Shown here in pieces: positions 24,794 to 42,005 of a stretch of 64,000 nucleotides of DNA. The stretch covers positions 1 to 64,000 of the forward strand of contig CALYAP010000029.1 in assembly GCA_944393575.1 (NCBI GenBank), written 5' to 3'. The stretch is from an uncultured Clostridia bacterium (lineage in GTDB: Bacteria > Bacillota > Dehalobacteriia > UBA4068). Position 1 is the stretch's first letter; each line of letters begins with the position of its first letter. The notes beneath the pieces were generated by a model. That model worked only from the letters and a program-made list of their open reading frames with translations. It did no database searches and was not told the DNA's origin. The position numbers and the translations under genes are program-made.

Positions 24794-24884
24794 GATTGAT
24801 TCTCCTCCTAATTTTCAGGGAAAGCCCTTCAGCGGCCTGACCGCTGATACGGACATAATTCCCGTAGTTTACACTAATAGATGA

Positions 24885-24913
24885 ATTATATCCCAAGTGG
24901 CGGTACTTGTCAA
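24885..24913 (-). promoter_or_regulatory. rpmH promoter
   Basis: Minus strand: TTGACA (24908-24913), 17 bases, TATAAT (24885-24890), a full consensus match. Confidence 0.93.
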
Positions 24914-24987
24914 TCGCAATCTCCGCCTTGTCTGTGGATAACCCGCCTTTTTTGCCTGTTTTGTCTTCTCATGGGCGAAAAAAATTC

Positions 24988-25016
24988 TTGAAAATGTGGA
25001 TAACTTTTGCTATTAT
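24988..25016 (+). promoter_or_regulatory. dnaA promoter with a DnaA box in the spacer
   Basis: TTGAAA (24988-24993), 17-base spacer, TATTAT (25011-25016). The perfect DnaA box at 24995-25003 fills the spacer and another lies just downstream, which suggests autorepression by DnaA. Confidence 0.8.
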
Positions 25017-25184
25017 AATTATTGCATTTAAGTTATCCACAGGAGAAAACAGTGTCATGCTGTCTTTTGCCGGCAGCTTCCCGCACCTGATGCGGTGTTC
25101 CGGCCCCTCCTGCTTGGGGCAAAATATCAGCTGGGGCCGATGTGCCAAAAGCGCGCGGCCTCCCATTCAGAGGGGGTTCATCAG

Positions 25185-26516
25185 GTGGAAGCATTTTGGC
25201 AGGACGCTTTGGCAAAAATCAAAAACGAGGTTCGGGAAACCAGCTATGAGCAATGGTTCTCTCCTGCGACAGTGATTAGGGTCGAGAAGCAGAATGATAC
25301 CGTTTATATCTGCGTAGTCGATAAATTCGCTAAAAACGCTATCGAGACCCTGTATATGCCAATGCTGACCGAAGTGCTGAGCGAAACCCTGGGCGAGGCT
25401 GTTTTCCCTGAAATCATTGATCTTTCTAATGAAAGCGTGCCGGAAAACCGGCCTAGCCCTGCTGCTAAAAAAAGCGACTATGCCGGCGCGCCCTATTTCA
25501 ACCCCCGTTATACCTTTGATTCTTTCGTGGTCGGCAGCTCCAACCGTTTTTCCCATGCCGCGGCGATGGCAGTGGCCGAAAGCCCCAGCCGTACCTATAA
25601 CCCCTTGTTCATCTATGGCGGCAGCGGCCTGGGCAAGACCCATCTGATGCATGCCATCGGCCAGGCGGTGCTGAAAAACTCGCCGGGCAAAAAGGTGGTC
25701 TATGTCAGCTCCGAGGCCTTTACCAACGAATTCATCACCATGCTGCGGGAAAACCGGCTCGACGCCTTCAAGACACGCTACCGCAATACCGATATTCTGC
25801 TGATCGACGATATTCAGTTCCTTACCGAGAAAGACCGCATCCAGGAAGAATTTTTCCATACCTTCAATGCGCTCCATGATGCCGGCAAGCAGATCGTCAT
25901 CAGCTCCGACCGTCCGCCCAAGGAGATCAATCCTCTGGAGGAGCGGCTGCGTTCCCGCTTTGAGTGGGGGCTGATCACCGATATCCAGCCGCCGGACTGG
26001 GAGACCCGCTGCGCCATTTTGCAGCGGAAAGCGCTTTCCGAACATATCAAGGTTGATAATGAAGTCATCTCCTTGATCGCCGATAATATCAAGACCAATA
26101 TCCGCGAGCTGGAGGGCGCGCTCAACAAAGTCATCTATAGCTGCATCATTCACAAGCGCAGCTATGCAGATATGGAATTCGCTAAAGAAGCGCTCAAGGA
26201 GATCTTGGTTCCTGATGCTCCGCCTAAGCTGACCATCAATAATGTGCAGAAGCTGGTGGCTGATTATTATCAGATCAGCATCGAGGATATGAAGGGCAAA
26301 AAGAAAGACCGCTACATCGCCTTTCCCCGCCAGATCGCCATGTTCCTCTGCCGGGAGCTGGTGGGCGCAACCACGCCGCAGATCGGCCGTGATTTTGGCG
26401 GCCGCGACCACACTACAGTGATGTACGCCTGCGAGAAAATCGGCACCGCGCGAAAGACCGATCCGCAGCTGGACCGCTCTTTGAACGATATCGAAAAGAT
26501 GCTGCTTCATAAATAA
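25185..26516 (+). CDS. dnaA: Chromosomal replication initiator DnaA
   Basis: DnaA binds DnaA boxes and, with ATP, opens oriC and loads the helicase. The start is taken as GTG at 25185 because AGGGGG lies 8 bases upstream, giving 443 residues. An in-frame GTG at 25095 lacks such a site. Domain I runs VEAFWQDALAKIKNEVRETSYEQWF. A short linker follows, then the AAA+ domain with YGGSGLGKTH (Walker A, about residues 144-153) and ILLIDDIQFL (Walker B). The C-terminal DNA-binding helix carries GRDHTTVMYACEKI. It is on the plus strand, opposite to recF and dnaN downstream. Confidence 0.97.
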   Translation: MEAFWQDALAKIKNEVRETSYEQWFSPATVIRVEKQNDTVYICVVDKFAKNAIETLYMPMLTEVLSETLGEAVFPEIIDLSNESVPENRPSPAAKKSDYAGAPYFNPRYTFDSFVVGSSNRFSHAAAMAVAESPSRTYNPLFIYGGSGLGKTHLMHAIGQAVLKNSPGKKVVYVSSEAFTNEFITMLRENRLDAFKTRYRNTDILLIDDIQFLTEKDRIQEEFFHTFNALHDAGKQIVISSDRPPKEINPLEERLRSRFEWGLITDIQPPDWETRCAILQRKALSEHIKVDNEVISLIADNIKTNIRELEGALNKVIYSCIIHKRSYADMEFAKEALKEILVPDAPPKLTINNVQKLVADYYQISIEDMKGKKKDRYIAFPRQIAMFLCRELVGATTPQIGRDFGGRDHTTVMYACEKIGTARKTDPQLDRSLNDIEKMLLHK

Positions 26517-26566
26517 GCTACATTATATATATTCTACATTATATACATGATAAATATGCTGCATTT

Positions 26567-26597
26567 ATCCCCACCTTATCAACAGGTGGGGATTTTT
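26567..26597 (+). terminator. dnaA terminator
   Basis: ATCCCCACCT (26567-26576) pairs with AGGTGGGGAT (26584-26593) and ends in a run of T residues. The rest of the 26517-26790 spacer is AT-rich with one ATATCCACA box-like word near 26640. Confidence 0.92.
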
Positions 26598-26790
26598 ATA
26601 CCTCCAGATATTGCTCTTATACCTGTCAAAAACTACTATATATCCACAAAATAAGCGATAAAAAGACTTTTTTCGTCATTATTGACAGGCAGTAATCCAC
26701 ATTTTTTCCCCATCTTTAGCCGCGATACCAGCAATCGCTGCCGTTAGCAGCGGTTTTTGCTTGGGGGAAAGGGAGCAGCGGGAGCAAAAG

Positions 26791-27222
26791 CTATAAGAAA
26801 AATTTCTCGATCTGGGATTCGCCGATGACGGTGATCCCTTTTTCTTTGAGCGCTGCGGCCAGCACGCCGTCGCCCGCCACCAGCGTGGCGGAGAAATTGC
26901 CATCATAAACCTGTCCGCTGCCGCAGGAGGGGCTGCGTTCTTTGAGAATGGCGTAGCGGCACTGGTACAGCTCGGCCAGATGGAGCACCTCAGCAGCTCC
27001 GCGCGCAAAGGCGGCGGTGATATCCCTGCCGCTGCGGTCATAGACTCTCCCCTGGCACAGCTCAGCGGGCTGCCGCGGAGTAGGCAGGCCGCCCATGATC
27101 TCCGGACAGACCGGGATCAGCTGATAATGCTGCTGCAGCTGCGCCAAATGCGGACAAACAGAGGCTTGTCCATCATAGCGGCAATGTACTCCCAGCAGAC
27201 AAGCGCTGATCAGAATATTCAC
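26791..27222 (-). CDS. DUF523 (TudS-like) iron-sulfur protein
   Basis: The 143-residue protein is a complete DUF523 domain: ILISACLLGVHCRYDG, VCPEIMGGLPTPR and ILKERSPSCG with YDG after it. Characterised TudS members are thiouracil desulfurases with a [4Fe-4S] cluster held by three cysteines; the matching residues here are C8, C39 and C100. The function in this organism is inferred from family only. It sits between dnaA and recF, where no such gene is normally found. A second, slightly shifted set of frames overlaps its end but is not coding. The spacer to recF (27223-27374) shows nothing. Confidence 0.9.
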   Translation of the reverse strand: MNILISACLLGVHCRYDGQASVCPHLAQLQQHYQLIPVCPEIMGGLPTPRQPAELCQGRVYDRSGRDITAAFARGAAEVLHLAELYQCRYAILKERSPSCGSGQVYDGNFSATLVAGDGVLAAALKEKGITVIGESQIEKFFL

Positions 27223-27374
27223 CGGCTCTCCCTCCCTATTAACAGACTGCTGCTATCTATAAGCCGTTTTATCTTAAATTAGCTATTAATAGAACCTTTT
27301 TACTAATACCTCTTTATTTTAAACAGCGGTTTTATTTGTGTTCTCTTCTTTTCCCTCTTCTATTAATCACTTAA

Positions 27375-28481
27375 TCACTGCAAATGCGCCACGCCGTCGA
27401 TGGCTTGGACCAGCCATTTAGTGCCCTGGTTGATCGCGGACGGCAGGGTGGCGGCGCTGATAAAGGTCTGCGTTTTGGCCGGCAGCTCCAAAATGCGGCG
27501 GCCGCGCTGATCGTCAAGCTCAGAGAGAGCATCATCAAGCAGCAGCACCGGGTACTCGCCCTTTTCCGCATAAGCCAGCTCCAGCTCAGAAAGCTTCAGC
27601 GAAAGCGCCAGGGTGCGCTGCTGTCCCTGGGAAGCGAAATCGCGCGCCGCATCACCATTGATCAGGATATTGATATCGTCCCGATGCGGGCCGACCAGAG
27701 TAGCGCCGCGCAGCCGCTCAGCGTGGCTGTGCCGCTGCAGCTCGCGCCGGTACAGCTCCGCCAGCTCCGCAGCTGAGGAAAAGCTTTCGCGGCCAGCAAT
27801 ATTGCACTGATAGCGCAGCTCCAGACCCTCGCCTGTGGCCAGATCATCATGGAGCGGCGCAGCTATCTGATTGAGAGCAGCGATGATCTGCTGACGGCGC
27901 AGGCTGATCTGGCTGCCATATTCCACCAGCTGATCATTCCAAACCGCCAAAGTATCCTCATCGGGCATTCTCTCCCAGGCCTTGAGGCAGGCATTGCGTT
28001 GGCGCAGGATATGATTATAATTGACCAGCGTATGACAATAAGCCGGATCGATCTGGGAGATCTGGCGGTTGAGCCAGCGGCGGCGGCAACCGGGACCGCC
28101 TTTGACCAGGTAAATATCCTCCGGCGAAAAAATGACCGTATGAAAAATACCCACGATATCCACCAGACGGCGGCGCGGTTGGCCATTGACTACCCATTTG
28201 CGCTTTTTATCGCGGTTCATCGCCGCTGAAATAGTCAGCCTGCCCTGAGTGGCAGAATAGGCCTCTGCTTCCAGATAAAAATGCTGTTTATTTTTATTGA
28301 TTAAATCCAAATCATCTGTCGTGCGGAAAGAAGAAGCCATTCCCAGATAGGAAATGGCTTCGAGCAGATTAGTCTTTCCCTGGGCATTGGCGCCATAGAT
28401 GATATTGACGCTTTCGTCAAAAAGCGCTTCCTGATGAAGATAATTACGCCAATTTTCCAGTTTCAACCTTTTGATTATCAT
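27375..28481 (-). CDS. recF: DNA replication and repair protein RecF
   Basis: RecF loads RecA at gaps together with RecO and RecR. The 368-residue product starts MIIKRLKLENWRNY, has the Walker A GANAQGKTNLLEAI (about residues 30-43), EDIYLVKGGPGCRRRWLN, the ABC-type signature FASQGQQRTLALSLK and Walker B PVLLLDDALSELD. It starts one base after the dnaN stop, so translation is coupled. The small S4-domain gene (yaaA) often found between them is absent. Orientation is opposite to dnaA. Confidence 0.96.
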   Translation of the reverse strand: MIIKRLKLENWRNYLHQEALFDESVNIIYGANAQGKTNLLEAISYLGMASSFRTTDDLDLINKNKQHFYLEAEAYSATQGRLTISAAMNRDKKRKWVVNGQPRRRLVDIVGIFHTVIFSPEDIYLVKGGPGCRRRWLNRQISQIDPAYCHTLVNYNHILRQRNACLKAWERMPDEDTLAVWNDQLVEYGSQISLRRQQIIAALNQIAAPLHDDLATGEGLELRYQCNIAGRESFSSAAELAELYRRELQRHSHAERLRGATLVGPHRDDINILINGDAARDFASQGQQRTLALSLKLSELELAYAEKGEYPVLLLDDALSELDDQRGRRILELPAKTQTFISAATLPSAINQGTKWLVQAIDGVAHLQ

Positions 28482-28482
28482 C

Positions 28483-29628
28483 TTATTTGCTTACTCTGAC
28501 TGGCAAGACCAGGTAGAGATATTTATTTTCCTTTTCTGCAGCAGCTTCTTCATCATCGGCGGCAGCGGCGATGATGCCAGGGGTAGTAGGGCCGGTAAGG
28601 CTGAAGGTGACCTGATCGTCATCCATCACCCGAAGCGCATCCAGCAGATAGCGGGCATTATAGTTAAGGGTCATCGGTTCGCCGCTGATGACAGCCTCCT
28701 GATTTTCATCAAAGGTACCATCATCAGGCGAGGAAGAATAGATATTGACGCTATGCTCATCTAAACGCAGACGGACGATATTGCCCTTGCCACGGGCGAT
28801 CTCCCGGCTGATCACTGAGGCCAGCTCTAAAGACTCGATCATCCGCAGACGGGAAATAGTCAAAAAGCTGCGGAAAAGCTCCTGATCAGGCAATACTTGA
28901 TGATAATCCGGGAACTGGCCGACGATCAGGCGCGAGGTTACTGAAAGATTGGCGAAGCTGAAAAAGATCTGGCTCTTGCTGACCGTGATGATGATATTAT
29001 CATCGTCATTGTTAGCCAAGCGGGCGATCTCCTGCATCACCTTATTGGGGACGATGACCGTAGCCTTGCCCTGTCCCTGCCAGGTATCATTGCTGACTGC
29101 CAGGCGGTGGGTATCGGTAGCTACCATAGTGATATTATCGCCATCTAGTTCCAGCATAATACCGGTGAAGACCGGTCGCAGCTCATCGGCTGAGGCGGCA
29201 ATGCCGGTCTGGCGCACCATGCGCTTAAAGACGCGTACCGGGATCGTGCCCTGGATATCGCCCTCACGCGGCGGCAGCAGAGGAAATTCTTCAGTAGTAT
29301 AGCAGGGCATAGATATCTGGCCGCGGTCATATTTGATCAGCAGCTGCTCCTGGCCGACAGATTCCAGAGTCAACGGGCCGGATCCTAAACCTTTGGCCAG
29401 CGCGGAAAGCTTACGCCCCGGAGCGACCAGCTCGCCCTCTTCCTCAATGGCGGCATTGATCACACATTCAATAGCTATTTCCAGGTCGGTAGCGCGGAAG
29501 CTGAGCTGATTGCCATGAGCAGAGATCATGATGCCGCTTAATACCGGCAGGGTGTTTTTGGTACTGACAGCTCTTTCCACAGCATTGACCGCATAGAGAA
29601 GATCTTCCCGTAAAAGCTCGATTTTCAT
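28483..29628 (-). CDS. dnaN: DNA polymerase III beta subunit (sliding clamp)
   Basis: The 381-residue product has the three repeated clamp domains, opening MKIELLREDLLYAVNAVERAVSTKNTLPVLSGI and containing LVAPGRKLSALAKGL and RLAVSNDTWQG. It forms the ring that tethers polymerases to DNA. GGAAAG precedes the ATG. About 25 residues before the end there is an acidic Asp/Glu/Ala-rich insert (AAAADDEEAAAEKENK), unusual for the clamp. Upstream, on its 5' side, lies the DnaA-trio unwinding element, in the same relative order as in B. subtilis. Confidence 0.97.
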   Translation of the reverse strand: MKIELLREDLLYAVNAVERAVSTKNTLPVLSGIMISAHGNQLSFRATDLEIAIECVINAAIEEEGELVAPGRKLSALAKGLGSGPLTLESVGQEQLLIKYDRGQISMPCYTTEEFPLLPPREGDIQGTIPVRVFKRMVRQTGIAASADELRPVFTGIMLELDGDNITMVATDTHRLAVSNDTWQGQGKATVIVPNKVMQEIARLANNDDDNIIITVSKSQIFFSFANLSVTSRLIVGQFPDYHQVLPDQELFRSFLTISRLRMIESLELASVISREIARGKGNIVRLRLDEHSVNIYSSSPDDGTFDENQEAVISGEPMTLNYNARYLLDALRVMDDDQVTFSLTGPTTPGIIAAAADDEEAAAEKENKYLYLVLPVRVSK

Positions 29629-29639
29629 AGATAATCTTT

Positions 29640-30435
29640 CCTTTCGCTAAAATTTACGCTTATTGTCAACTTATACTTCTTCATCATAAAAAAGATGATT
29701 GTTGGTCTCTACAGCGATGATAATGTTCAATGGAAGTAAAGCATAAGTTAATTAGGAGTATTAGTATATATAAAATAGTATTAGTAATAGGGGGTGTGGA
29801 TTAAGGGGATAAAGATCGCTTAGCAAAAGTTTTAGTGGTTGTTTGCCAAAAAAATGCTTGTGGAAGAGATAAACAGAGATATCCACAAATTAACAGTGCT
29901 TAACAAAAGGGCAAAAGTTATTAACTTTCTGCCATTTTTTGTATCCAGTTTATCAACAAGCCTTTCCACCGAAAAAGAGGCTTTTTCCAACGCTATTCCC
30001 CAACTTTTCCCCAAAAAAAGAGGGGTGCCCTGTGTATTTCTTTGATAATACCAGTATAAACGATTTTCTCCTAAAAGAAAAGAGGCAGCGGGAAAAAAGT
30101 AGCTGCCAACCCCTGGCTATTTCTCTTTAACTTATGTGTGGATAAGCTTTTTTAGTACTGTTTATTAAAGGGAAAGAAAAGCATCTTTGGTCTGAAAAAG
30201 ACGAAGCAGTAGTTTATCGATGCCACTGATGTTAAAATAAAGGCACAGAATTATTAAAAGTTTATTAAGATTATTTATCAATACAGGAAAAAGATTAAAT
30301 CTATAGAAAAAAGAATAAAGGATAAACTTGGCTCTTTGTTGATAACGCTTGATAATCTATCACTTTAGTTACTATCAGCTGCGGCTGAGTTAACAAGATT
30401 TATCCTGCTAGTTAAATAAAATAAAGGAGAAAACA
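29640..30435. other. Likely oriC: AT-rich region with DnaA boxes
   Basis: About 800 bases without a gene. DnaA-box-like sites: TGTGGATTA (29795), TGTGGAAGA (29859), ATATCCACA (29879), TTATCAACA (29950), perfect TGTGGATAA (30137) and TGTTGATAA (30337). AT-rich tracts and a DnaA-trio element (29764-29803) are present. Genes to the left run mostly on the minus strand and those to the right mostly on the plus strand, as expected around an origin. Confidence 0.8.
29764..29803 (-). other. Basal unwinding element: AT-rich tract, DnaA-trios, GC spacer, DnaA box
   Basis: On the plus strand an ATATATAAAA tract is followed by five trinucleotides TAG-TAT-TAG-TAA-TAG (29776-29790), GGGG (29791-29794) and the box TGTGGATTA (29795-29803). 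Read toward dnaN (minus strand) this is box, C-run, trios, AT-rich DNA: the order of the B. subtilis unwinding region between dnaA and dnaN. Confidence 0.8.
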
Positions 30436-31149
30436 ATGCTCAAGATCAGCCATTTTTCAAAATCATATGATAGCCGCCATAAGGCTGTCGATGATCTCTC
30501 CTTAGAGGTTTGCTCTGGAGATATTTTTGCTTTTATCGGTCATAATGGCGCCGGTAAAACCACTACTCTCAAAGCGGTAGTAGGGATTCTCCCCTTTGAA
30601 GAGGGAACGATCAAAATCGATGATCTGGATATCAATGAATATCCGCTAGAGGTTAAAAAACGCCTCGCCTATATTCCTGATGAACCAAAACTCTATGATA
30701 TGCAGACCGGCGCGCAGTATCTCAATTTTATCGCCGATATTTTTGACGTCAATGCTGTTGACCGGCGGGAGCGGATCGAAAAATATGCTGAGCTGCTGGA
30801 AATCAGAAAAGCACTCAATGATCCGATCAATTCTTATTCTCATGGTATGAAGCAAAAATTGCAGATCATCTCCGCTTTTATCCATAATCCTAAGCTGATG
30901 GTGATGGATGAGCCTTTTGTTGGTTTGGACCCCAAAGCTGCTTTTAGCTTCAAGCAGTTGATGCGCGAATTCTGCGAAAATGGTGGGGCGATTTTCTTCT
31001 CCACCCATGTCTTGGAAGTAGCGGAAAAACTCTGCGATAAAGTAGCGGTGATCAAAGGCGGCAAACTGATCGCCAGCGGCACCATGGATGAGGTCAAGGG
31101 CGATAGCTCGCTGGAAGAAGTCTTTTTGGAGTTAACAGAACATGAATAA
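30436..31149 (+). CDS. ABC transporter ATP-binding protein
   Basis: The 237-residue ATPase has Walker A GHNGAGKTTT (about residues 36-45), a degenerate signature SYSHGMKQKL, Walker B LMVMDEPFVGLDP and the switch FFSTHVLEV. It is of the ABC-2 exporter type (CcmA-like). AAAGGAGAA precedes the ATG. It overlaps the following permease gene by 8 bases, so the two form one exporter. The substrate is unknown. It is the first gene to the right of the predicted oriC. Confidence 0.93.
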   Translation: MLKISHFSKSYDSRHKAVDDLSLEVCSGDIFAFIGHNGAGKTTTLKAVVGILPFEEGTIKIDDLDINEYPLEVKKRLAYIPDEPKLYDMQTGAQYLNFIADIFDVNAVDRRERIEKYAELLEIRKALNDPINSYSHGMKQKLQIISAFIHNPKLMVMDEPFVGLDPKAAFSFKQLMREFCENGGAIFFSTHVLEVAEKLCDKVAVIKGGKLIASGTMDEVKGDSSLEEVFLELTEHE

Positions 31150-32704
31150 ACTAGGCATATTGATCAAAAATTATCTGCTCCTGGCATGGGGCGAAATCAA
31201 ATATAAGAAAAAGAAAGGCGGCCGCACCATCGGCTCACTGGCCTTAATCGTTGTGCTTGGCGCTTTTCTCATTTTTGTCATGGGCAGTTCAGCTGCTGGG
31301 CAAATCTATTCATACCAGCCTTTCGGTATGGCCCATATTGCCTTGGCTTATAGTTTGATGTTGGCTTTAGTGGTCAGCTTGTTGATGGCGATTATGCGCG
31401 GTTCTATGGGTAGCAATACCGCTGATGCTGAGCTTTTGTTATCACTGCCGGTAACACGCCAAACAGTGATCGTGGCCAAGAGCTGTTCCAAATATCTTTT
31501 TGAGCTGTGGCCCATGGTGGTCTTTTTCCTGCCGGCCCTAGTCGTCTATACTGTTATCATGGATAGCGGCATCGGCCTCTTGCTACGCGGCATTCTCTTG
31601 GTATTGATGATCCCGCTGCTTTCGGTCGGCCTTTCCTATATTCTTAACTGGCTGTTTTTCAAGGCCGGCAGCAAGATCAAAAATCCGCAGAATGTAACTA
31701 CAGCGCTGACCATGATCTTTTTAGTGCTGTACCTGGTCTTTGTTTTCACTATCAATAGCGGTGCTGCTACTATGGCGGATATTTCCGAGCTGGAAGAGCA
31801 GTATTATTCCTTTGCGCCGATCGCCTGGGGAACGGAGTTTATGCTCACTGGCTCCATCGTGCAGCTGCTGCTCTTTGCCTGTGTCACGGTACTGCCTTTT
31901 ATTATCGGCGTTTGGCTCTATGCTAGTATCTTCGGCCGCTCTCACCGTACCTGGCATTCGACCAAAACTACTATTGATTACCGGAGCAGAACCCCTTATC
32001 AGGCTCTGCTGAAAAAGGAGATCAGCCGTTATTTCGGCTCCTCGGCCTATTTTATCAATACCGGCTTTGGCATGGTGATGCTGTTGATCTTGACCGTCGT
32101 CATCATTATCGGCAAAAACAGTTTTCTGGCAGAGATCTTGCCTTTCTTAGGCAATCTGGTGCCGGTTATCATTATTCTTTTTGCTTGTTTCTGCATCGCT
32201 ACCTGCTATGTCAGCGCCTGCTCCATTTCTCTGGAGGGGAAAAATTTGTGGATTCTCAAGGTAGCGCCGGTTAGAACTCGCGATATCTTCCTGGCCAAGC
32301 TTACCACTCACCTGGTGGTGACCCTGCCGGTGACCCTCATCTGCTCAATAGTATTGGTGCTGGTATTGGGTCTGCCTGCTGGCCAGGCCTGTCCTGTGAT
32401 CCTGCTGCCCAGCGCCTATTGCCTGCTGACTGGGGTGATGGGTCTGGTGATCAATCTCAAAAACCCCAAGATGGATTGGGATGGTGAAGACAAGGTAGTC
32501 AAACAAAGCACGGCGGCTGTTTTGGGTATGCTCTGCGGCATGTTGCCGGCAGCAATCGTCTTTATCCCCTATTTTGTTTTTCTCCAGGGAATAGTTAGCT
32601 GGACCGCGATTTATCTGATCGCTCTAGCGCTCTTCATCTGCGCAGCGCTGATCATGTGGCTATGGCTCCGTGACCGTGGGGAAGAAATTTTTGAGGCGCT
32701 GTAA
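31142..32704 (+). CDS. ABC-2 type permease
   Basis: The 520-residue protein has about 12 hydrophobic segments and looks like the large Firmicutes ABC-2 permeases encoded after CcmA-like ATPases. It begins with a Lys-rich cytoplasmic patch (IKYKKKKGGR) followed by TM1. A conserved-looking ELLLSLPVTRQTVIVAKS coupling segment follows TM2-TM3, and ISLEGKNLWILKVAPVRTRDI is a second coupling segment in the C-terminal half, suggesting two fused permease halves. The transported substrate cannot be told. A strong terminator follows. Confidence 0.85.
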   Translation: MNKLGILIKNYLLLAWGEIKYKKKKGGRTIGSLALIVVLGAFLIFVMGSSAAGQIYSYQPFGMAHIALAYSLMLALVVSLLMAIMRGSMGSNTADAELLLSLPVTRQTVIVAKSCSKYLFELWPMVVFFLPALVVYTVIMDSGIGLLLRGILLVLMIPLLSVGLSYILNWLFFKAGSKIKNPQNVTTALTMIFLVLYLVFVFTINSGAATMADISELEEQYYSFAPIAWGTEFMLTGSIVQLLLFACVTVLPFIIGVWLYASIFGRSHRTWHSTKTTIDYRSRTPYQALLKKEISRYFGSSAYFINTGFGMVMLLILTVVIIIGKNSFLAEILPFLGNLVPVIIILFACFCIATCYVSACSISLEGKNLWILKVAPVRTRDIFLAKLTTHLVVTLPVTLICSIVLVLVLGLPAGQACPVILLPSAYCLLTGVMGLVINLKNPKMDWDGEDKVVKQSTAAVLGMLCGMLPAAIVFIPYFVFLQGIVSWTAIYLIALALFICAALIMWLWLRDRGEEIFEAL

Positions 32705-32982: not shown

Positions 32983-34206
32983 TTGAGCAGCTATGTATGT
33001 GTACGGAGCGAGATCGGCAAGCTGAAAAGGGTAATGCTCCACCGTCCCGGGAAGGAGCTAGAACATTTTACCCCGTCTCAGATGCACGAGATGCTTTTTG
33101 ATGAGATCCCCTGGATCTCGCGGATGCGGGAGGAGCATGACGCTTTTGCTGAGGTATTGCGGCAGGAAGGCGCTCAGGTAGTCTATATTGAGGACTTTCT
33201 GCGCGATATTTTTGCTATCCCAGCAGTAGCGGAAAAATTTGTCGACCATCTGCTTAATACCGAGATCCGTCGCGACCGGCAGGAAAGCAGGCGTTTTCGC
33301 GAGTTGTTTATGACCAGCCGCCCGGAGGTCAAGGCCGCCTTTGCTATCTGCGGCGTTTATCCCCGCGATATCCAAGGCAAGCGGGAGAGCCTGGCGGATT
33401 ATCTGCCGATGGATAAGACCCATTTGCTGAACCCACTGCCGAATATGTATTTTGCCCGCGACCCGGCAGCTGCAGTGGGCACTTCGATGATCCCCAGCTA
33501 TATGTCCACGCCGGCCCGCCACCGCGAGGGTGTGCTGATGAACCTGATTCTCAATCACCATTCCTGCTTTACCGGGACAGTGTTGCTTTATAATACCGAG
33601 CATTATAATATGCCGGTAGAAGGCGGTGATATCCTGGTTCTTTCTGATAAGGTGGTTGCCATCGGCTGTTCGCAGCGGACCAATTTCCATACTGCCGAAT
33701 ATCTTGCCCGCCAGATTCTCAATATGCATTCTACCTTTGAGAGCGTACTAGCAGTTTATCTGCCACCAGAGCGGGCTTTCATGCACTTGGATACGGTGAT
33801 GACCATGGTTCATCATGATGCTTTTGTTATCTATCCGCGGGTGATCGAAGACGTCACCGTGGTGGAGATGAAACGCCATCCTTCGGAAAATGGCCAGCTG
33901 GTCTATAAGCGCCATGATGATCTGCGCTCCGCCCTCTCCAAAGCCCTGGGTATCGGCAGCGTGCGGATGATCCTCTCCGGCGGCGGCGATAGCCGTACCG
34001 CTGCCCGCGAACAGTGGAATGACGGCGCCAACACCCTCTGTGTAGCTCCGGGACGGGTCATCGTCTATAACCGTAATGAAGCTACCAACCGTTGCTTGCG
34101 TCAGGCTGGCATCGAAACCATCGAGATCGAAGGCAGCGAGCTGGTTCGCGGCCGTGGCGGCCCGCGTTGTATGAGCATGACACTGGTCCGGGAAAGCGTT
34201 AAATAA
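32983..34206 (+). CDS. arcA: Arginine deiminase
   Basis: ArcA hydrolyses arginine to citrulline and ammonia, the first step of the ATP-yielding deiminase pathway. The 407-residue product carries the family motifs LHRPGKELEHFTP, LPNMYFARDP, EGGDILVLS, MHLDTVMTM and the catalytic cysteine in GGPRCMSM (C396). The start is TTG at 32983 behind a strong GGAGGAGG site. The partners arcB, arcC and arcD are not adjacent, so downstream steps must be encoded elsewhere, or the enzyme may serve mainly for acid resistance or arginine depletion. A gene for a PaaK-like enzyme follows. Confidence 0.96.
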   Translation: MSSYVCVRSEIGKLKRVMLHRPGKELEHFTPSQMHEMLFDEIPWISRMREEHDAFAEVLRQEGAQVVYIEDFLRDIFAIPAVAEKFVDHLLNTEIRRDRQESRRFRELFMTSRPEVKAAFAICGVYPRDIQGKRESLADYLPMDKTHLLNPLPNMYFARDPAAAVGTSMIPSYMSTPARHREGVLMNLILNHHSCFTGTVLLYNTEHYNMPVEGGDILVLSDKVVAIGCSQRTNFHTAEYLARQILNMHSTFESVLAVYLPPERAFMHLDTVMTMVHHDAFVIYPRVIEDVTVVEMKRHPSENGQLVYKRHDDLRSALSKALGIGSVRMILSGGGDSRTAAREQWNDGANTLCVAPGRVIVYNRNEATNRCLRQAGIETIEIEGSELVRGRGGPRCMSMTLVRESVK

Positions 34207-36859: not shown

Positions 36860-37162
36860 TTCTGCTTTAATACCTCTCCTGAATTATCTATCCTTGACTG
36901 ATACCTGCCCAGAGCTTTTTTATACCTCAAAAGAGCAGCCGTTCCAAGCTGGTCTTTTTTGTTTTTGAGGCTTTTGGCCGGCTGCTTCGGTAGCTAAAAA
37001 AGTATTATTTTTAACTGAGATAGTAAAAGTCGCTATTTGTCAAGTTCTTTTTTTAACACGCTTTTTGTCGAATAATGCCACCTCAAAAGCATTATCCACA
37101 GAGTTATCCACATTATCCACAGGGTAGTATCCACAACAAATTTTCATTAGTGGATAATTTTG
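36860..37162. other. Intergenic region holding a DnaA-box cluster
   Basis: Upstream region of the DUF1294 gene and 3' flank of the large permease gene; see the box cluster at 37092-37157. No gene seen. Confidence 0.75.
37092..37157. promoter_or_regulatory. Cluster of DnaA boxes outside the origin
   Basis: Three perfect TTATCCACA boxes at 37092-37100, 37104-37112 and 37113-37121 (the last two abutting), one GTATCCACA at 37127-37135, and an opposite-strand AGTGGATAA at 37149-37157. Confidence 0.88.
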
Positions 37163-41267: not shown

Positions 41268-42005
41268 ATGAAAACAAAACAGCAAGAGTCAATTACAGCT
41301 GGCCGCCGCGCCGAACAAGAGGAAGCGCTGCGGGTCATCGGGGAAAACGCCGCTGAGATCATCCATGAACTGAAGGCACCTCTATCCAATATCATGGCGT
41401 ACATGCAATTGATAGAAAGGAGGCTGCAAAAGGCAGGAGTGGATACGCAGGATCTGCCCTTTCCTGTCTTGTATCAGGAAATCAAGAGGATGGGTAGTCT
41501 TTGCCAACAGTCTATGGCCCTGATCTCTGCCACGGAGGAGCAGCCAGGACCTTTGGATATGGGCGAGTTATGCAATGGCACCGCTGTCTTGTTCCGGGCG
41601 TTGACCATTGCGCAGGGGATCGATCTGGTGTTGGAGATCCCGAAAGAGCTCGTCTATGTTTTCGCTGATGAAAACCAGCTGCGCCGCTTATTGATCAATC
41701 TGGTGGCCAATGCCGCGCAGGTGCTGCGCGGATACCGGGAAGACGGTCGAATCAAGGTCTCGCTCAAAAACGCGGATGAGGGGCTCGTCCTGATGGTGCA
41801 GGATAACGGCCCAGGCATGGACGCGCAGACCTTGGAAAGGATTTTTGACCGCTTCTATACCACCAAAAAGGATGGCTCTGGCATGGGCTTGCCCATTTGC
41901 GCTCAGATCGCCAAAGACTGCCACGGTACCCTGACTGTTTTCAGTGAAGTAGGACAGGGATCTTCCTTTGTCCTCTGGCTGCCCGCTGCCCAAAAGGCGG
42001 TTTAG
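41268..42005 (+). CDS. Orphan histidine kinase without sensor domain
   Basis: The 245-residue cytoplasmic protein consists of a HisKA dimerisation and phosphoacceptor region (EIIHELKAPLSNIMAYMQLI, H33) and a HATPase_c domain with N box LLINLVANAAQVL, DNGPGMD (G1) and GSGMGLPICAQIA (G2). There is no membrane segment, PAS or HAMP, and no adjacent response regulator. It resembles the catalytic half of sporulation-type or NtrB-like kinases. The ribosome binding site is poor and the upstream 510 bases encode nothing, so a lost N-terminal sensor part is possible. Confidence 0.85.
   Translation: MKTKQQESITAGRRAEQEEALRVIGENAAEIIHELKAPLSNIMAYMQLIERRLQKAGVDTQDLPFPVLYQEIKRMGSLCQQSMALISATEEQPGPLDMGELCNGTAVLFRALTIAQGIDLVLEIPKELVYVFADENQLRRLLINLVANAAQVLRGYREDGRIKVSLKNADEGLVLMVQDNGPGMDAQTLERIFDRFYTTKKDGSGMGLPICAQIAKDCHGTLTVFSEVGQGSSFVLWLPAAQKAV

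Follow-up and report, generated by a model that had tools for sequence, protein, structure and literature searches.

Inverted order of an oriC2-like unwinding element, dnaN and recF next to dnaA in an uncultured Clostridia bacterium, and broken origin clusters among its relatives

The DNA analysed here (the window) comprises nucleotides 1–64,000 of a 66,757-bp contig (C29) of G000, a MAG of 78 contigs and 1.67 Mb that is 97% complete. Its closest named relatives carry the labels Peptococcaceae, Clostridia or Bacillota; they are MAGs, some of them from animal gut. Genes were called from open reading frames and NCBIfam profiles, and these calls bear out what the preliminary description had read from the letters: dnaA lies on the plus strand, recF and dnaN downstream of it lie on the minus strand, and a DUF523 gene stands at the joint. 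The full order is rnpA, rpmH (−), dnaA (+), DUF523, recF and dnaN (all −), an 807-bp spacer, and abcA, abcP and arcA (+), with coordinates collected in Table 1. The order rnpA-rpmH-dnaA-dnaN has been described as conserved across Firmicutes. Homologues of the DUF523 gene are found elsewhere in relatives, at unlinked places.

Table 1. Features of the dnaA–dnaN region and its flanks in the window
Feature	Position	Strand	Evidence or remark
rpmH-dnaA spacer, oriC1-like	24795..25184		three perfect TTATCCACA boxes: 24933 (-), 24995 (-), 25033 (+)
dnaA	25185..26516	+	PF00308 E 3.7e-76; TIGR00362 E 8e-165
left joint, dnaA side	26517..26790		hairpin terminator and four one-mismatch DnaA boxes
DUF523 / 2-thiouracil desulfurase-like gene, at left joint	26791..27222	-	PF04463 E 6.7e-46
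recF, in inverted block	27375..28481	-	TIGR00611 346 bits, E 1.4e-103
dnaN, in inverted block	28483..29628	-	TIGR00663 266 bits, E 4.7e-79
origin block (oriC2)	29629..30090	-	GC 0.34; reverse-complement homology to G001 dnaA-dnaN spacer
unwinding element (predicted)	29766..29812	-	degenerate tandem DnaA boxes, C-run, DnaA-trios; reads towards dnaN
right joint, outer origin end to abcA	30091..30435		GC 0.31; one perfect box 30137 (-)
abcA (ABC ATPase)	30436..31149	+	right flank; follows recF immediately in G001
abcP (permease)	31142..32704	+	right flank; after abcA in G001 too
arcA-like arginine deiminase	32983..34206	+	right flank; after abcP in G001 too

The canonical Firmicutes unwinding element lies between dnaA and dnaN, whereas here it is found beyond dnaN. 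A DnaA-trio element with AT-rich DNA had already been proposed at this place, and we searched for it with a 48-position sequence profile trained on 17 standard-order relatives, leaving the window out to avoid circularity. With this profile the element scores E 5e-7 within the window, and it ranks first in the entire 1.67-Mb genome (E 1.4e-5). The second-ranked match in the window covers the box half only, and the dnaA-recF gap holds no noteworthy match to the profile. Upstream of dnaN and on its strand, the element reads TTATCCCCT-TAATCCACA-CCCC-CTATTACTAATACTATTTTATATA, within a dnaN-abcA spacer that reads TTATCCCCTTAATCCACACCCCCTATTACTAATACTATTTTATATATACTAATACT on the same strand. An exact copy of the motif CCTATTACTANTACTAT is present at the element only; shuffled sequences contain on average 0.16 matches per window when up to three mismatches are allowed. 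The GC fraction of 29629–29812 is 0.30 compared with 0.52 for the whole window, and 29629–30435 contains five DnaA boxes with at most one mismatch where 0.17 are expected.

The published search rule for basal unwinding systems asks for at least three DnaA-trios (3'-NAN-5') at most 16 bp from a DnaA box (PMC8287927). By sequence the element conforms to it, with five trios (CTA TTA CTA ATA CTA, or 3'-GAT-AAT-GAT-TAT-GAT-5' on the other strand) that start 4 nt past box TAATCCACA and 13 nt past box TTATCCCCT. Tandem boxes beside the trios, a C-run, at least five trios and AT-rich DNA beyond them are all shared with the characterized systems (PMC6669920, PMC8287927); the predicted element of the window differs in that the near boxes are degenerate. 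The two 9-mer boxes are one and two mismatches from TTATCCACA and directly contiguous, as is the pair in relatives, and they are weaker than those adjoining the trios in G001, a MAG of the same genus (TTATCCCCT and TAATCCACA versus TTATCCCCA and TTATCCACA). On the other side of dnaA, the rpmH-dnaA spacer contains DnaA boxes, as a canonical Firmicutes oriC1 does; three of them are perfect, in an arrangement common to the window, G001 and G002, a further MAG of the genus. The opening site had been estimated to lie about 3 kb from dnaA, which holds for the dnaA stop codon (3.25 kb from the trios) but not for the rpmH-dnaA boxes, which are ~4.7 kb away.

Had all relatives shared the gene order of the window, the inversion would have been ancient and ordinary, as the preliminary description had pointed out. 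This is not what the comparison gives. The standard order is seen in ten other genomes of the family (G001, G005, G006, G007, G008, G009, G013, G015, G017 and, via overlapping contigs, G019) and in all 20 sampled genomes of the class outside it. Among the 29 class genomes that are at least 85% complete and in which both genes were found, dnaN directly follows dnaA on the same strand in 26, and the three exceptions, G000, G004 and G010, all belong to the window's family. Across 20 family genomes the top profile match lies directly upstream of dnaN in 13 (in G019 on the end of the dnaA contig, where it overlaps the dnaN contig), and a weak match in G012 (E 0.14) is also upstream of dnaN. Counting this weak match, 14 of the 15 family genomes with dnaN have one element next to it, the exception being G010; since family members supply 10 of the 17 training rows and so match by construction, the independent tests are G000, G004, G010, G012 and G016. 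No full-length profile match was found in G002, G003, G011, G014 and G018, all of them assemblies without dnaN. We also note three local peculiarities. In G025, which belongs to a different family of the order, the unwinding element (L101:12460-12506) lies right behind dnaA on the strand opposite to dnaN. In G036 (L098) recF is upstream of dnaA on the other strand while dnaA-dnaN is standard. Contig C157 of G019 starts with an apparent Illumina adapter, GTGACTGGAGTTCAGACGTGTGCTCTTCCGATCT (L086:1-50), followed by the overlap with the dnaA-contig end.

The comparison with G001 bears most directly on how the order of the window arose. One G001 contig (C118) runs rnpA-...-dnaA-origin-dnaN, with dnaN cut at codon 110, and another (C165) runs from the C-terminal part of recF through abcA and abcP to the start of arcA. 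Both ancestral junctions, dnaA-origin-dnaN and recF-abcA, are thus seen in G001, on separate contigs broken inside dnaN and recF. They presumably join through dnaN-recF, because recF follows dnaN in the other genomes. In the window the corresponding derived junctions are dnaA|(DUF523)recF and origin|abcA. The origin block aligns with the dnaA-dnaN spacer of G001 only in reverse complement, scoring 230 where shuffles reach at most 87, and this alignment includes the outer motif AAATCGTTTATACTG. The abcP-arcA flank is homologous in the two genomes, including the abcP-arcA spacer. The standard order can be taken as ancestral because G000 and G002 are grouped to the exclusion of G001 in DnaA and Jag trees (support 98/98 and 96/92), and because the order is standard in most family members and in the remainder of the class. 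The intact element has travelled with dnaN. The simplest account, from the gene orders and alignments, would be one local inversion of [origin-dnaN-recF] between dnaA and abcA, as had been suggested from the window by itself; the G001 junctions and the reverse alignment argue for the inversion, whereas a strictly one-step course is, in view of G002, only probable.

An inverted joint in a 78-contig MAG might also have been made by the assembler, especially as origin regions often break: contigs end at dnaA or dnaN in G001, G002, G003 and G019. However, no long inverted repeats flank the block, the best pairs being 14–49 nt at 70–93% identity and none of them pairing both joints. The left joint carries a whole extra gene, the flanks and spacers match G001, and G002, an independently assembled MAG, is also without an origin after dnaA. 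We therefore consider misassembly of the joint unlikely and give it little weight.

A complication for a single inversion comes from G002. There dnaA (+) is followed 550 bp on by abcP (−), the contig ends inside abcP, and the dnaA-abcP interval contains no unwinding element. The breakpoint 3' of dnaA is thus common to the window and G002, with abcP at this place in G002, and because this abcP is reversed, a second rearrangement must have used the same side of dnaA. Furthermore, the window's hairpin segment downstream of dnaA has a homologue in G002, where it lies 3' of abcP. Together with the DUF523 gene at the joint, this could suggest a history of several steps: an inversion including the ABC genes might, for instance, have given a G002-like state, and re-inversion or transposition might have come next, along with the gain of DUF523, the 3' end of dnaA being a repeatedly used breakpoint. 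On the other hand, one inversion is enough to turn the G001 order into that of the window, we found no one-step change that would connect the window state with that of G002 and account for the shared segment as well, and the G002 contig is cut off within abcP. A multi-step history is in our estimate unlikely, though by no means negligible. Neither of the two states could be derived from the other in one step, and a single flip of the origin block is the reading that we carry forward.

The left joint has features of its own. The hairpin at 26567–26593 reads CCCCACC-TTATCAACA-GGTGGGG, its loop being a near DnaA box. It had been claimed that the inversion left only the rpmH-dnaA boxes in place; this is not so, as four further boxes with one mismatch each lie 3' of dnaA (26565–26701). 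We considered whether part of oriC2 had stayed behind dnaA, but this was not borne out: the spacer 3' of dnaA aligns with the window's own origin at shuffle level, and its weak match to the G001 origin is mostly outside boxes and trios. The spacer at 27295–27317 also matches the trios in inverted orientation (78% over 23 nt), which we attribute to chance in AT-rich sequence.

The GC-skew analysis covered the 66.8-kb contig and parts of the relatives' sequences. The skew minimum of the contig is at 27,976, between dnaA and the element. A change-point fit to fourfold sites is flat over ~19–32 kb, and its better fit at 65.5 kb is an end artefact. The skew check that had been proposed therefore agrees with an origin in this region, but does not separate 25 from 30 kb. 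Replication could then start at the rpmH-dnaA spacer (oriC1), the element beyond dnaN being a relic of the ancestral site: a position at 25 kb is allowed by the skew, and the three boxes at 24.93–25.04 kb are perfect whereas those by the trios are degenerate. Nevertheless, box, C-run and trios of the element are all intact, and the genome has no other full-length strong match. The rpmH-dnaA spacer has no noteworthy trio match; the element is also kept in relatives that have lost the link to dnaA. In C. difficile, unwinding occurs at oriC2 and not at oriC1 (PMC7561715). A start at oriC1 is on these grounds improbable, and we choose 29.8 kb as the predicted origin because of the intact element and the C. 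difficile precedent.

The densest cluster of perfect DnaA boxes on the contig is found elsewhere, at 37092–37157, where TTATCCACA-N3-TTATCCACA-TTATCCACA-N6-TATCCACA is followed by an inverted box. The same layout, GTTATyAACA-N3-TTATCCACA-wTATCCACA, could be aligned in 12 of the 20 family genomes. On density and conservation this five-box array might be the real DnaA-dependent origin, but it has no trios, it matches the profile over the box half only (positions 1–20), and the skew has already been rising since ~29 kb. In G001, G003, G004, G009, G016 and G017 arrays of this type precede an orphan AtoS/KinD-like histidine kinase gene, and their distance to the origin is 29 kb in G009 and G017; the histidine kinase gene of the window is at 41268–42005, behind an ABC block. 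An origin at 37.1 kb is hence very improbable, and the array is possibly a site of DnaA titration or replication-coupled control.

We think it likely that the window carries a flipped [oriC2-dnaN-recF] block whose origin is still the working unwinding site, at ~29.7–29.8 kb. A local inversion would have flipped oriC2, with its unwinding element, together with dnaN and recF, so that dnaA now faces recF, with DUF523 at the joint, and the origin faces abcA. DnaA made ~3 kb away would bind the tandem boxes, spread across the C-run to the trios of one strand and open the AT-rich DNA towards dnaN, and replication would leave bidirectionally from ~29.7–29.8 kb. Both this loading scheme and the firing of the predicted origin at this site are what we infer. 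Because the element occupies the outer edge of the flipped block, both dnaN and recF would remain leading-strand genes next to the origin, and dnaA would remain on its former side with its own promoter boxes. For the orientation of replication and transcription the flip would thus be cheap.

The window genus is not the only place where the cluster has come apart: inside the family it is broken in at least four lineages, with one unwinding element kept in each. In G004 (L068/L069, C42) and G016 (L082, C46), which belong to one genus, the order is recG-origin-dnaN-recF, away from the rpmH-dnaA cluster; the upstream gene appears to be recG-like from its C-terminal sequence. dnaA lies 19 kb from the origin in G004 and was not found in the G016 assembly, where the cumulative skew declines up to the origin at 12.5 kb, changes little until ~19 kb and increases thereafter. 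G012 (L078, C144; L077, C52) has rpmH-boxes-element-dnaN, with dnaA mid-way in another contig. In G010 (L251:7030-7600, C45), rpmH, boxes and element are directly beside a gene that reads as argS, and the element is apart from both dnaA (C121) and dnaN (C27, behind rpmE). One tentative reading, which we place near to but short of an even chance, is that the origin has been uncoupled from dnaA repeatedly in this family: by the flip in the window genus, by a move together with dnaN-recF to recG in G004 and G016, by departure of dnaA in G012, and by departure of dnaA as well as dnaN in G010. The adjacency constraint would then be relaxed, with the unwinding element rather than proximity to dnaA defining the origin.

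Compared with the bipartite oriC of B. subtilis and C. difficile, the window has the same left side (rnpA-rpmH and the rpmH-dnaA boxes) and an element read towards dnaN and recF; it differs in that oriC2-dnaN-recF is inverted and the element sits beyond dnaN. Separation of the origin from dnaA by rearrangement is already known from E. coli, where oriC is 44 kb from dnaA (PMC5295017). There, however, the origin left the dnaA-dnaN-recF cluster, whereas in the window it stays with dnaN and recF and is flipped in place, and unlike the E. coli case the flip is so recent that the former order survives in a congener. We found no earlier description of an inversion of the dnaN block in the open-access literature. 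The series of break-ups in the family is more interesting than the flip.

The two-part Firmicutes origin is believed to form a loop across dnaA. Two congeners that differ by one flip, together with the break-ups in at least four lineages, provide natural tests of whether an origin needs to be adjacent to dnaA, and raise the questions of whether the distance, order or orientation of oriC1 and oriC2, or the dosage coupling of dnaA and origin, matter for initiation. If the reading holds, the constraint that ties dnaA to oriC in other Bacillota would be relaxed in this family.
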